Shown in pieces: positions 2,238 to 6,715 of a DNA stretch of 17,832 nucleotides. Positions within the stretch are counted from its first letter, which is position 1. The number at the start of each line of letters is the position of its first letter. The notes below the pieces were generated by a model that searched no databases, was not told where the DNA came from, and saw nothing but the letters and a program-made list of their open reading frames with translations. A program made the translations under genes and the position numbers. The stretch lies in the NCBI GenBank assembly GCA_947305045.1, contig CAMZCW010000028.1:1-17832 (forward strand), read 5' to 3'. Origin of the DNA: an uncultured Bacteroidales bacterium. GTDB taxonomy: Bacteria; Bacteroidota; Bacteroidia; Bacteroidales; UBA932.

Positions 2238-3713
2238 ATGAAATACGGGTTCGACAACGCAAAGTACTTAAAAATCCAATCAGAGCACATCAAGGAGCGC
2301 ATCGCCAAGTTCGGCGACAAACTCTACATGGAGTTTGGCGGCAAACTGTTCGACGACTACCATGCCTCCCGCGTGCTCCCGGGCTTTGAGCCGGACTCCA
2401 AGCTTCAGATGCTCATGCAGCTCAAGGATGAGCTGGAGATGATTATCGTCATCAGTGCCGTGGATATCGAAAAGAACAAGATGCGCGCAGACCTGGGCAT
2501 AACCTACGATATGGATGTGCTGCGCCTGAGGGACGAATTTATGGCCCGCGGTTTCAGCGTGAACAGCGTGGTTATCACGCACTTCAACGGGCAGGCGAGT
2601 GCCGAGGCCTACCGCAAACGCCTGGAGAACATGGACATCAAGGTCTATTACCACTATACCATCGAAGGCTATCCCAACAACGTCTCGCTCATCGACTCGG
2701 ATGAAGGTTTTGGCCGGAACGACTATGTGGAAACTACGCGTCCGCTCATCGTGGTGACGGCCCCCGGTCCCGGCAGCGGCAAAATGGCAGTGTGCCTGAG
2801 CCAGCTGTACCAGGAGAACAAGCGCGGCGTCAAAGCCGGCTATGCCAAATTCGAGACCTTCCCGGTATGGGATCTTTCTCTCACGCACCCCGTGAACATT
2901 GCCTATGAAGCCGCCACGGCGGACCTGGACGATGTCAACATGATCGACCCGTTCCACCTGGATGCGTATGGTACCACCGCCGTCAACTACAACCGTGACA
3001 TTGAGATTTTCCCGGTGATGAACGCCCTGTTCGAGGACATCTACGGGGAAACGCCGTACAAATCGCCCACGGATATGGGCGTGAACATGATTGGTTCCTG
3101 CATCTGTGACGATGAAGTGTGTCGCGAAGCCTCCCGTCAGGAGATTATCCGCCGCTACTTCACCGGCCTTTGCAATCTGGCCGATGGCAAGTGCACGGAG
3201 AACGAGGTGAACAAACTGGCCCTCCTGTTGAAGCGGGCCAAGCTCTCCATCAATGACCGTCAGTGCGTGGTGGCCGCCCGCGAGCGCCTGGAGAAGGCAC
3301 AGAAGGCCACTGCCGCCATGGAACTGGAAGACGGTACCATCCTCACCGGCGAAACCAGTCCGCTGCTGGGTCCCAGTGCCGCCCTGCTGCTGAACGCCAT
3401 CAAGCACCTGGCCGGCATTGCCCATAATGTGAAGCTGATCCCGCAAACCATGATAGAGCCCATTCAGAAGCTCAAGGTGGATTACCTGCACGGGCACAAC
3501 CCGCGCCTGCACACGGACGAGGTGCTGGTGGCCATCTCCATGATGGGCCGGCTGGACGAGAACTGCCGCCTTGCCCTGGAACAGCTGCCCAACCTCAAGG
3601 GCGCCCAGGTACATTCCACGGTGATGCTCAGCGAGGTGGACCGGAAAACCTGGAACAAGCTGGGGATCGGCCTCACCTGTGACCCGGTTCGTAAAATCAA
3701 GAAAGTTGTATGA
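2238..3713 (+). CDS. UPF0371 / DUF1846 family protein
   Basis: This 491-residue protein matches the UPF0371 (DUF1846) family, which I recognise from its opening (MKYGFDNAKYLKIQSEHIKE) and from the segments FGGKLFDDYHASRVLPGFEP and ADLGITYDMDVLRLRDEF. The family is widespread and structurally studied, but I know of no assigned reaction. APGPGSGKM (residues 175-183) resembles a nucleotide-binding P-loop, though the residue after Lys182 is Met rather than Ser/Thr. No signal peptide or membrane segment is seen, so it is probably cytosolic. The ATG at 2238 was chosen because family similarity begins there and because the promoter lies just upstream; the reading frame stays open back to 1953, but that part is antisense to pgi. 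Its stop overlaps the next start by 4 bases (ATGA), implying translational coupling. Confidence 0.93.
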   Translation: MKYGFDNAKYLKIQSEHIKERIAKFGDKLYMEFGGKLFDDYHASRVLPGFEPDSKLQMLMQLKDELEMIIVISAVDIEKNKMRADLGITYDMDVLRLRDEFMARGFSVNSVVITHFNGQASAEAYRKRLENMDIKVYYHYTIEGYPNNVSLIDSDEGFGRNDYVETTRPLIVVTAPGPGSGKMAVCLSQLYQENKRGVKAGYAKFETFPVWDLSLTHPVNIAYEAATADLDDVNMIDPFHLDAYGTTAVNYNRDIEIFPVMNALFEDIYGETPYKSPTDMGVNMIGSCICDDEVCREASRQEIIRRYFTGLCNLADGKCTENEVNKLALLLKRAKLSINDRQCVVAARERLEKAQKATAAMELEDGTILTGETSPLLGPSAALLLNAIKHLAGIAHNVKLIPQTMIEPIQKLKVDYLHGHNPRLHTDEVLVAISMMGRLDENCRLALEQLPNLKGAQVHSTVMLSEVDRKTWNKLGIGLTCDPVRKIKKVV

Positions 3714-4459
3714 GAAGATGGCTGCTCATAGCCGGTGTGCTGCTTGCCGGTGCCTGTTCGCAGGCGCAGGTGAAGCAGTACGGCATCAAGGTGGTGAAAG
3801 AATACCCGCACCGCACGGACGCCTATACCCAGGGCCTGTTCTTCCAGGACGGCATCCTGTGGGAAACCACGGGGCAGTACGGGGAGAGCACCATTCGCAC
3901 GGTAGACCTTGCCAGCGGAGAACCCACGCAGCTTAAAAAGCTCAACAGCAAGTATTTCGGCGAAGGCTCCGTTATCCTGGACGGCGTGCTGTATGTGCTC
4001 ACCTGGACCAATAAGGTGGCCTTTAAGTACGATGCCGCCACCCTTACGTACCAGAAGACGCTCAGCTACCCGCGGGAAGGCTGGGGTATCACCACGGATG
4101 GGAAGCAGCTCATCGCCAGCGACGGCAGCGCCAACCTGTTCTTCCTGGACAAGGACCTCAAGCTCCTTAAACGCCAGCCCGTGACCATGAACGGCCGGTC
4201 GCTCCGCTACCTGAACGAGCTGGAGTGGATCGATGGTAAAATTTGGGCCAACGTATACACCACGGACACCATCGTCATCATCAATCCTGCCGATGGCAAG
4301 GTGGAAGCGGCCATTGACTGCAGCGGGCTCCTGCCCCGCAAGCTGCGTAAAAAGGATACGGATGTGCTCAACGGCATTGCGCTGGACGCGGAAGGGCGTA
4401 TTTACTTAACAGGGAAAAAATGGCCCCGCCTGTACCAGGTGGAGCTGGTTAAAAAATAA
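3710..4459 (+). CDS. Glutaminyl-peptide cyclotransferase (glutamine cyclotransferase), lipoprotein
   Basis: This 249-residue protein is a bacterial/plant-type glutamine cyclotransferase, a five-bladed propeller that converts N-terminal glutamine of peptides or proteins to pyroglutamate with release of ammonia. The family motifs occur in order: AYTQGLFF (about 38-45), YGESTIR (57-63), LNELEW followed by IWANVYTTDTI (168-188) and LNGIA (220-224). Residues 1-16 are a signal ending LLAGAC, so Cys16 is probably lipidated and the enzyme faces the periplasm or the cell surface. The start codon lies inside the stop of the DUF1846 gene. In Bacteroidota many exported proteins have Gln right after signal cleavage, which is a reasonable pool of substrates; that link is inference. 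The TPP riboswitch of the next gene begins 2 bases after this stop. Confidence 0.93.
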   Translation: MRRWLLIAGVLLAGACSQAQVKQYGIKVVKEYPHRTDAYTQGLFFQDGILWETTGQYGESTIRTVDLASGEPTQLKKLNSKYFGEGSVILDGVLYVLTWTNKVAFKYDAATLTYQKTLSYPREGWGITTDGKQLIASDGSANLFFLDKDLKLLKRQPVTMNGRSLRYLNELEWIDGKIWANVYTTDTIVIINPADGKVEAAIDCSGLLPRKLRKKDTDVLNGIALDAEGRIYLTGKKWPRLYQVELVKK

Positions 4460-4460
4460 A

Positions 4461-4550
4461 TTTACATAACAGGGGTATCGGCCCAAAGGCCGATTGAGAT
4501 TATACCCATAGAACTTGATACGGTTGATACCGTCGTAAGGAAGATGAAAA
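4461..4550 (+). promoter_or_regulatory. TPP riboswitch (THI element) overlapping the receptor start codon
   Basis: The order and conserved bases match the thiamine pyrophosphate aptamer. P2 is GGGTAT (4473-4478) with ATACCC (4502-4507 region). P3 is ATCGGCC, loop CAAA, GGCCGAT (4477-4494). The conserved TGAGAT follows at 4495-4500, in the place of CUGAGA. The second arm reads GAACTTGAT (4511-4519), P5 is ACGG with CCGT around TTGATA (4520-4533), and the closing strand is CGTAAGGAAG (4534-4543). The presumed P1 pairs TTTACAT (4461-4467) with ATGAAAA (4544-4550), with one mismatch, and so includes the start codon at 4544. Binding of the ligand would then block translation directly. There is no room for a separate terminator. 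Confidence 0.92.
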
Positions 4551-6715
4551 AAACATTGCTTTTTGCGGCACTGTGCGTGCTGCCTCTCTGCGCCGCTGCG
4601 CAGGAACGTCTGGACTCGGTGGTGGTTTCGGCCACCCGCGCCGGCAAAGAAACTCCGGTTACCTTTGACATGGTTGGGAAGGAGGAGCTCCGTGGGAGCA
4701 ACCCTTCGGCCTCCCTGCCCATGACCCTGAACCTGCTGCCCTCCGTCGTTACCTACAACGAGAACGGCACGGGCCTGGGGAATTCGTCCATGACCATCCG
4801 TGGCAGCAGGGGTTCGCAGATTAACGTGACGCTCAACGGCATTACCTTGAACGATGCCGAGTCGCAGGAGGTGTTCTGGGTGAACATTCCGGCCCTGACG
4901 AGTCTTCTGTCAGGGGTGCAGGTGCAGCGCGGGCTGGGGACGTCGGCCAGTGGTCCCGGCGCGTTTGGCGCCAGCATCAACATGAACACGGCCTTTGTGC
5001 GGCCGGAGCCTATGGCCACCATAGAGTTGAGTGGAGGCTCTTTTGGCACTGTCATGACATCGGCGGCCATCTCGTCCGGAAGGCTGCCCAGCGGGTTGTA
5101 CTTTGACCTGGCCCTGAACCTGGGCATCACCGACGGATACATCCGGAACGGTTTTGTGGAGTCCACTTCGCTCTTTGCCGTGCTGGGATGGCTTCGGGGC
5201 GCCAACTCGCTCAGAATGACGTATTTACTGGGCGCACAGCGGAGTGGTATCACCTGGGATGGGATAGATCTGGAACAGTATCACAAAGACCGACGCTACA
5301 ATGGGGCGGGGGAATACTACGACGACAATGGGAATGTCTGCTACTATCCCAACCAGACGGACAATTATGCCCAGCACCACCTGCAGCTCAACTATACGCG
5401 CCAGTTTGGTGCGCATCTCAGCTGGGTGAATACGGTGAATTATACCCGCGGCGACGGCTATGACGAGTACTATAAGATGAACCGGAAACTGCCCAACTTC
5501 GGCTTCCCCATGAGCGGTCGTTCGGACATGATTTATCAGAAGAAGATGGACAATGACCTCTGGGTGGCTGTCAGCAGCCTGCGGTACCGGTCGGCCCTGC
5601 TGGATGTGACGGGCGGTGTGAACCTGTCCTGGTACCGCGGCGGCCACTGGGGAGAGGTGCTGTGGGCCAAGGAAGCGCCCGATTATCCGTACCATACGCT
5701 GGACTGGTACAATCACACCGGCTGGAAACGGGAGCAGAGTGTCTTTGTGCGGGCGGAGTACCATCCGGTCCACTGGCTCACTGCCTATGCGGATGTGCAG
5801 TACCGGGGAATCGACTATAAACTCCTTGGAACCGATGACGACTTCCTGGAGTTTGGCGCGGTGGAGGCAGACCGGTTTGATTACCGCAAGCGCTGGAACT
5901 TTTTCAATCCCCGCGCAGGCGTCACGGGCGCCTGGGGCCGGCATAAGGTGTATGGCTCCGTTGCCTGGGGGCACCGGGAGCCGGGCAGGGGAGATATTAA
6001 AGAAAATGTAAAAGGCGCCCCCACTTCCATAGAACCTGAAAAAATGCTGGATACGGAGCTGGGCTATGCGTTTACCGGCCGGCGCTTCCAGGCATCGGCC
6101 AATCTATACCTGATGGAGTATTGGGACATGCTGCTGGAGACGGGCCGGCTGTCTTCTTCCGGCTATGCCATCAAGGAGAATGTGCCGCGTTCCTGGCGGC
6201 GGGGTATCGAGCTCTGTCTGGGGTGGGAACCGCTCTCCTGGCTCAAACTGGACGGCAATGTCACGCTTTCCATGAATCAGATTGCCGACTACACTTCTTA
6301 TGTCCCCTACGAGGACTATTCGGCCCTGCATGCGGTCCGGTACGGACGTACCACCATGCTCATGTCGCCCTCGGTGATTGCCATGGCCCGGGCTGCATTC
6401 CGGCCCTGGAAAGGAGGACGCATCAGTGTGGATGCCAAGTACGTGGGCAAGCAGTATATAGACAATTCCATGCGCGAGGAGATGGCCATTCCGGCCTGGT
6501 GGGTGGCGAACTTGCAGGCGGGGCATCAGTTTAAACTGCCGTTGGGACTGCTCGATTTGTCGGTTTATGTAAACAATCTCTTGAATCGTATGTACTATGC
6601 GGCCGGCTGGCGCTGGGAAAGCTATAACCCTGCTTCAGACAAGGTAGAAAGCGGAATTGGCGTATATCCCCAGGCACCTTGTAATTTCATGGTGAAGCTG
6701 CGTTTTACTTTTTAA
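4544..6715 (+). CDS. TonB-dependent outer-membrane receptor, probably for thiamine
   Basis: This 723-residue protein is an outer-membrane beta-barrel receptor that takes up scarce nutrients using TonB energy. A signal peptide covers residues 1-19 (cut before QERLDS), followed by a TonB-box-like DSVVVSATR (24-32). A plug domain follows to about residue 150, including MTIRGSRGSQINVTLNGI, then the barrel, rich in aromatic alternating strands and ending in Phe (KLRFTF). No carboxypeptidase-like N-terminal domain is present and no SusD partner follows, so it is not a SusC-type receptor. The TPP riboswitch on its leader points to thiamine or a thiamine derivative as substrate, in line with the THI-regulated receptors of other Bacteroidota. 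The usual partners (a PnuT transporter and a thiamine pyrophosphokinase) are not next to it; trmD comes next after a 255-base gap. Confidence 0.93.
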   Translation: MKKTLLFAALCVLPLCAAAQERLDSVVVSATRAGKETPVTFDMVGKEELRGSNPSASLPMTLNLLPSVVTYNENGTGLGNSSMTIRGSRGSQINVTLNGITLNDAESQEVFWVNIPALTSLLSGVQVQRGLGTSASGPGAFGASINMNTAFVRPEPMATIELSGGSFGTVMTSAAISSGRLPSGLYFDLALNLGITDGYIRNGFVESTSLFAVLGWLRGANSLRMTYLLGAQRSGITWDGIDLEQYHKDRRYNGAGEYYDDNGNVCYYPNQTDNYAQHHLQLNYTRQFGAHLSWVNTVNYTRGDGYDEYYKMNRKLPNFGFPMSGRSDMIYQKKMDNDLWVAVSSLRYRSALLDVTGGVNLSWYRGGHWGEVLWAKEAPDYPYHTLDWYNHTGWKREQSVFVRAEYHPVHWLTAYADVQYRGIDYKLLGTDDDFLEFGAVEADRFDYRKRWNFFNPRAGVTGAWGRHKVYGSVAWGHREPGRGDIKENVKGAPTSIEPEKMLDTELGYAFTGRRFQASANLYLMEYWDMLLETGRLSSSGYAIKENVPRSWRRGIELCLGWEPLSWLKLDGNVTLSMNQIADYTSYVPYEDYSALHAVRYGRTTMLMSPSVIAMARAAFRPWKGGRISVDAKYVGKQYIDNSMREEMAIPAWWVANLQAGHQFKLPLGLLDLSVYVNNLLNRMYYAAGWRWESYNPASDKVESGIGVYPQAPCNFMVKLRFTF

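Follow-up and report, generated by a model that had tools for sequence, protein, structure and literature searches.

A TPP aptamer with a receptor start codon at its P1 position suggests a compact, direct-occlusion riboswitch in Bacteroidales

Results

The window analyzed here is a 17,832-nucleotide stretch from an uncultured Bacteroidales bacterium (contig CAMZCW010000028.1, forward strand). It carries a glutamine cyclotransferase gene (QC) and a gene for a TonB-dependent outer membrane receptor, with a TPP aptamer at their junction (Table 1). The Rfam covariance model RF00059 matches the + strand at 4461-4559 along its full length (model positions 1-105) with a score of 59.2 bits, compared to a curated cut-off of 54.3, and no other RNA family in the window reaches its cut-off. 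By covariance score, the aptamer is real. An initial annotation, made from the sequence alone, had placed the whole aptamer between the stop of one gene (TAA 4457-4459) and the start of the next (ATG 4544) and had named this covariance model as the check, and the match bears it out. The receptor sequence after ATG 4544, MKKTLLFAALCVLPLCAAAQ, looks like a signal peptide when the translation is read by eye, so this ATG is well placed as the start.

Table 1. Features at the junction of the cyclotransferase and receptor genes in the window.
Feature	Position	Strand	Basis or remark
Glutamine cyclotransferase gene (QC)	3710..4459	+	Pfam PF05096, 2.7e-87; ORF; stop TAA 4457-4459
5' flank	4461..4470	+	P1 5' strand: 4461-4467 (register of the initial annotation) or 4466-4470 (Rfam register)
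P2 enclosing P3	4471..4508	+	P2 = 4472-4474/4505-4507 plus 4476/4502; Rfam alignment
P3	4477-4481/4490-4494	+	Rfam alignment; pairs with two-sided changes in the 37 leaders
Conserved UGAGA of the aptamer core	4495..4499	+	Invariant in 37 leaders
P4 and P5	4514..4539	+	P4 = 4514-4517/4536-4539; P5 = 4520-4523/4530-4533
Junction plus P1 3' strand position	4540..4547	+	Includes the start codon; Rfam P1 3' strand 4543-4547
Receptor start codon ATG	4544..4546	+	Signal-peptide-like N-terminus comes next
TonB-dependent outer membrane receptor	4544..6715	+	Pfam PF07715 Plug, 1.1e-11; PF14905, 1.3e-6

The named relatives of the receptor come from metagenome-assembled Bacteroidales or Bacteroidia, many of them named after rumen or gut samples. 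Among the matches listed, at least 79 loci carry a related receptor, and their leaders differ in the distance between aptamer and start codon. We call a locus compact when the start codon lies 1-7 bases past the start of the P1 3' strand; 40 listed loci and the window make up this set of 41. In 36 other related loci among the matches listed, the aptamer lies approximately 50 to 100 nt upstream of the start (32 parsed and four labelled by eye: L197, L198, L207 and L228), and these we call distal.

We aligned 37 of the 41 compact leaders (L172, L173, L176 and L179 were left out) and examined the core helices. Across P2-P5, 97.4% of the alignment cells are paired, compared to 86.0% after shuffling, and none of 500 shuffles scores as high. 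Eight of the 18 core pairs have changes on both sides, the compensatory pattern looked for in P2-P5. In P3 of the window, A-U and U-A pairs replace the G-C and C-G of the Rfam consensus, and its second P4 pair is U-A instead of the consensus C-G; this pair is UA in 26 of the 37 leaders and CG in 11. The pairing and the changes on both sides suggest that the RNA is likely under selection to fold.

The closing helix is a different matter. The receptor start codon, 4544-4546, sits at the position of the P1 3' strand in the Rfam alignment (4543-4547). The initial annotation had described the start codon as part of P1 and had named UUUACAU (4461-4467) opposite AUGAAAA (4544-4550) as the only plausible closing stem. 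That helix can be formed with six of seven pairs and one A-A mismatch, and an equally good helix arises in 1.9% of 20,000 shuffles of the 11-nt flank. It is not the only candidate, as Rfam uses another register two bases away (4466-4470/4543-4547). That register also contains the AUG and has standard pairs at three of its five positions. The minimum-energy fold of 4455-4560 leaves P1 open and, with the core forced to fold, the predicted probability that the AUG pairs with the 5' flank is 0.08. The P1 energy with the window's own 5' strand is 0.0, compared to a mean of -2.2 with the 5' strands of 50 leaders; in a looser set-up, the values are -0.9 (CAU/AUG only) and -2.1. Because the energy model contains neither the ligand nor tertiary stacking, it neither proves nor excludes closure. 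The annotation was right on the architecture, with the AUG in the P1 position, and too sure of the particular stem.

A poor P1 could also mean that the window's riboswitch is decaying and its regulation gone. Its score of 59.2 bits, equal to that of L175, falls below the 63.2 to 74.2 bits of seven kin (L155, L156, L157, L161, L185, L191 and L229), and one relative, L181, has no aptamer that we could find between QC and the receptor. Against such decay, the P3 to P5 pairs are intact, the P3 and P4 departures from the Rfam consensus preserve pairing, and L175, a 95%-identical relative, has the same leader. We consider decay improbable.

The compact relatives make a stronger case for P1. In 28 of the 41 loci the five P1 positions take in the whole AUG, and in 33 at least part of it. 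For a permutation test, 66 receptor-linked leaders were dereplicated at 90% identity to 50, of which 33 belong to the listed loci and the remaining 17 to further genomes in the family; six leaders with CGTAAAGG were left out as their register is unsure. With their own 5' strands, these leaders have a mean P1 energy of -2.96, compared to -1.92 (sd 0.19) with permuted strands, and none of 20,000 permutations reaches a value as low. The longest helix near the junction averages 4.18 with own strands and 3.72 with permuted ones (11 of 20,000 permutations as high), and paired AUG bases taken alone show only a modest enrichment (matched by 513 of 20,000 permutations). Of the 50 compact leaders, 14 have the anti-start triplet CAU within the 10 nt preceding the aptamer, compared to 7.5 (sd 2.4) expected; of 32 distal leaders, five do, compared to 5.3 expected. 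CAU or UAU together are not enriched (28 of 50 compact leaders vs 27.7). The window retains CAU in its 5' flank (4465-4467).

A strand-swap test on 36 leaders of the family, including thiM- and thiE-linked ones, gave a mild effect, -2.58 with own strands vs -1.91 with strands of other genera (mean rank 0.42). The same test on 51 leaders with distant starts gave -4.96 vs -4.80 swapped. Three leaders (G064, G077 and G033) were dropped from both the strand-swap and the permutation tests, their upstream ATG being judged not a real start. Mean P1 energy is weaker in the compact loci (-2.91, n=41) than in the distal ones (-3.93, n=32).

Individual kin illustrate what a closed form could look like. 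In L156, whose receptor is 88% identical, CAUAA/UUAUG would pair the AUG fully, and the minimum-energy fold pairs CAUAAU with AUUAUG. The P1 strands are UUAUU/AAUGA in L161, UUUUUAUU/AAUGAAAA in L185 and CAUUUU/AAAAUG in L191. Among eight compact loci scanned, the Rfam alignment has five standard P1 pairs over the whole AUG in L156, L157, L161 and L185.

The initial annotation had looked to homologous leaders for compensatory changes in P1. In this respect, the P1 energy beats all 20,000 permutations, but fixing the register leaves a small signal: 59.5% paired vs 53.1% shuffled (seven of 500 shuffles as high), with two of six slid registers scoring higher for covariation, perhaps because the P1 register floats. 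The layout that would close the start codon in P1 recurs in 41 loci, but the predicted probability of a paired AUG exceeds 0.5 in only eight of 37 compact leaders (median 0.03, core folded). Thus, the closing helix is weak in the window and supported in its kin, less so when the register is fixed. Taken together, the permutation, AUG-pairing and CAU results point to P1 as a well-supported helix over the set, and not to AUG pairing in every member.

These observations also bear on a related possibility, that the TPP-bound core itself lies against the start codon while the AUG stays unpaired in this species. P4 and P5 come last among the aptamer helices and cover positions -30 to -5 relative to the start codon, leaving four bases between the end of P4 and the AUG. 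The window's P1 is predicted to be open, and five others of the 50 compact leaders (L171, L173, L178, L180 and G015) have no predicted P1, with energies of 0.0. The P1 energies below all permutations over the set, together with a CAU that is enriched in 5' flanks and kept in the window, argue that pairing matters, and we regard occlusion by the core alone as rather unlikely.

The distal loci are built differently. Six loci lack a parsed aptamer (L160, L181, L197, L198, L207 and L221) and one lacks a start (L228), leaving 32 distal loci for counting; here, the start lies 50-96 nt past the aptamer's CGnAGGRA motif. Also distal are G085, G097 and G130, labelled as the same genus as the nearest genome, of which G085 and G097 are apparently L225 and L204. 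The initial annotation had counted homologues whose P1 strands lie far from the start codon against its proposal, and the family answers both ways, with 36 distal loci and 41 compact ones, the window included.

Within the distal class, 31 of 32 loci have a linker, CCUUGCAU (CCUCGCAU in L223), whose eight bases can all pair with AUGCGAGG, made up of the start codon and the bases next to it; for this count the start was sought as ATGCG, which presumes part of the motif counted. The hairpin loop has 12-16 bases. L213 is the exception, with seven pairs at another place. An earlier parsing of the distal loci had taken an upstream ATG in ten of them, and L211 has two adjacent ATGs, either of which could serve as the start. 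As the hairpin is nearly invariant, it shows little covariation; L223 turns a G-U pair into G-C or C-G. The linker can also pair with the aptamer's own GGGG strand in many distal loci, and 28 of 32 distal loci, but only six of 41 compact ones, have a CCCC able to do so in the 70 nt downstream. From its pairing potential, the distal class looks like a classic two-state design aimed at the start codon.

We note two further features of these loci. The distal hairpin loci, for example L225 from 1430, fall in L186-L233, and their AUGCGAGG strand encodes Met-Arg-Gly. In two of 11 loci scanned, L189 (201-527, +) and L225 (187-499, -), both distal, the receptor has an RNase P RNA gene nearby.

The presence of a pairing partner in the distal relatives raises the question of whether the window hides one as well, in the coding region or the upstream gene, or uses Rho once translation stops. 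TPP riboswitches are an outstanding example of strand exchange in the available text of PMC10907184, and E. coli tbpA uses an anti-P1 stem and shows a drop in mRNA level too, according to the accessible part of PMC11487190. In the window, no anti-aptamer strand was found before the AUG and no CCCC within 70 nt downstream, nor was any terminator-like or sigma-70-like site found in 4300-4800. The longest helix between the aptamer's 5' strand and the 70 nt downstream averages 6.37 over the 41 compact loci, compared to 6.56 shuffled. From the 70 nt downstream and the stretch 4300-4800, we think a hidden switch of this kind very unlikely. The claim of the initial annotation that aptamer and expression platform are one fits the start codon in the P1 position and the compact loci mostly without a CCCC partner.

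The upstream gene is a regular part of the compact arrangement. A cyclotransferase match lies upstream in 39 of the 41 compact loci, the window counted, and in 23 of these 39 no more than 11 bases separate its end from P2, compared to four of 25 distal loci with a match. In the window, the upstream stop lies 11 bases before the first P2 base (4457-4472). P1 thus often sits between a stop and a start codon. At the window's upstream stop, a terminating ribosome would presumably cover the P1 5' strand and, as an idea, this overlap might gate the sensor. For promoters, we searched for what we take to be the Bacteroidales-type motif. It was not found in window positions 4200-4480, and the full motif occurs just before the aptamer in two of 41 compact loci (L199 and L230) and two of 32 distal ones (L188 and L210). 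L199 and L230 are not directly behind a cyclotransferase gene, which is 1,086 bases away in one and absent from the stretch examined in the other.

Of the genomes compared, the nearest, which is 91% complete and has 56% of sampled words in common with the window, contains one TPP aptamer. Among the five nearest-genus genomes with a TPP aptamer, we found a ThiC match in none, a ThiE-type match in one, and thiamin pyrophosphokinase and PnuC-type transporters in all five. This set of matches fits importers of thiamin rather than makers, and the receptor at 4544..6715 probably takes thiamin compounds.

A quick protein tree of 77 receptors (L160, L181 and L221 left out) places 38 compact loci, the window among them, in one group with a support of 99 and L199, L222 and L230 in another with a support of 100. 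Two changes of class, whatever their direction, are needed, both forced by supported branches. At L181, near position 1501, the cyclotransferase match reaches the receptor with no TPP aptamer found between them, and the riboswitch may have been lost.

In a family-wide sample, 122 of 149 genomes have a TPP match at E 0.001 or better. The compact layout also precedes receptors in genera labelled g3, g15, g16, g18 and g22; in g2 and g19 it precedes a ThiM-like gene, and in a single g6 genome a ThiE-like one (gene names from reading the translations). Three TPP aptamers lie on contig C28 of G038 (L071, L098 and L099); one is compact and precedes a ThiM-like gene, and the other two have distant starts. 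In an order-wide survey of 89 loci taken from among the best-scoring matches listed for 295 genomes (73 parsed, 16 not), the chosen ATG lies within 25 nt in two of the 73 parsed loci, both with doubtful starts; since only the best-scoring matches were taken, this sample is biased against leaders with a weak P1.

Discussion

Textbook translational riboswitches mask the Shine-Dalgarno site. Very probably, the locus described here is a genuine TPP riboswitch whose compact layout is unusual and is retained in related loci, and we lean, if only somewhat, toward a translation-level switch that works by direct occlusion of the start codon. In the mechanism we infer, TPP binding would close the junction and stabilize the weak P1 over or right beside the AUG, so that the 30S subunit could not load. 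Without TPP, P1 would stay open and the receptor would be made. Neither a terminator nor an anti-aptamer would be required. A weak P1 may itself belong to the design, since a strong one without a competing strand would keep the gene off.

The window shares its core with other members of RF00059 (THI element) but differs in having the start codon as a P1 strand position and no separate platform found within 70 nt downstream. As in E. coli tbpA (thiB), where the TPP-bound P1 goes with blocked translation initiation, P1 closure is proposed to prevent initiation; tbpA, as far as the accessible part of PMC11487190 describes it, masks a Shine-Dalgarno site and carries an anti-P1 stem, neither of which was found in the window. 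In fusing aptamer and platform, with the initiation region inside or beside the aptamer, the window resembles SAM-II, SAM-III and preQ1-II, group 1 in the available text of PMC10907184, although their ligands and aptamers are different. There, these three classes are treated as direct occlusion and the TPP class under strand exchange; in the window, the AUG lies in the P1 position, as expected of the former.

Riboswitches in Bacteroides precede OMthi, pnuT and thiS and, as the window probably does, place a TPP aptamer before a TonB-dependent thiamin receptor (PMC5613172, PMC7366714, in the text available). In B. thetaiotaomicron, thiamin caused no significant mRNA change in two transport operons, a result that fits translation control, and the same 2017 study called the functioning of TPP riboswitches in Bacteroidia uncertain; the phrase "start codon" is absent from its main text (PMC5613172, as accessible). 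Bacteroidia ribosomes do not recognize Shine-Dalgarno sites (PMC9976891), and initiation is tuned by structure near the start codon (PMC6847099), according to the available portions of both papers. The literature searched, which lay outside preprints and most subscription journals and was available in part, yielded no description of a start codon inside the P1 of a TPP riboswitch. Whether Bacteroides TPP riboswitches control transcription or translation is reportedly the subject of a preprint.

In both of its versions this regulator appears to conceal the start codon itself, by a different route in each. If so, these loci would offer a direct test of how riboswitches act on translation where Shine-Dalgarno sites play no part, as well as a natural series in which to follow the gain or loss of a riboswitch expression platform. 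More speculatively, in bacteria whose ribosomes ignore Shine-Dalgarno sites, the TPP riboswitches of this receptor family may have switched class two or more times. One class would use strand exchange and a start-codon hairpin of its own; the other would use direct occlusion, in which the start codon serves as a P1 strand and the ribosome terminating upstream gates the compact sensor. We hold this combined scenario to be unlikely.
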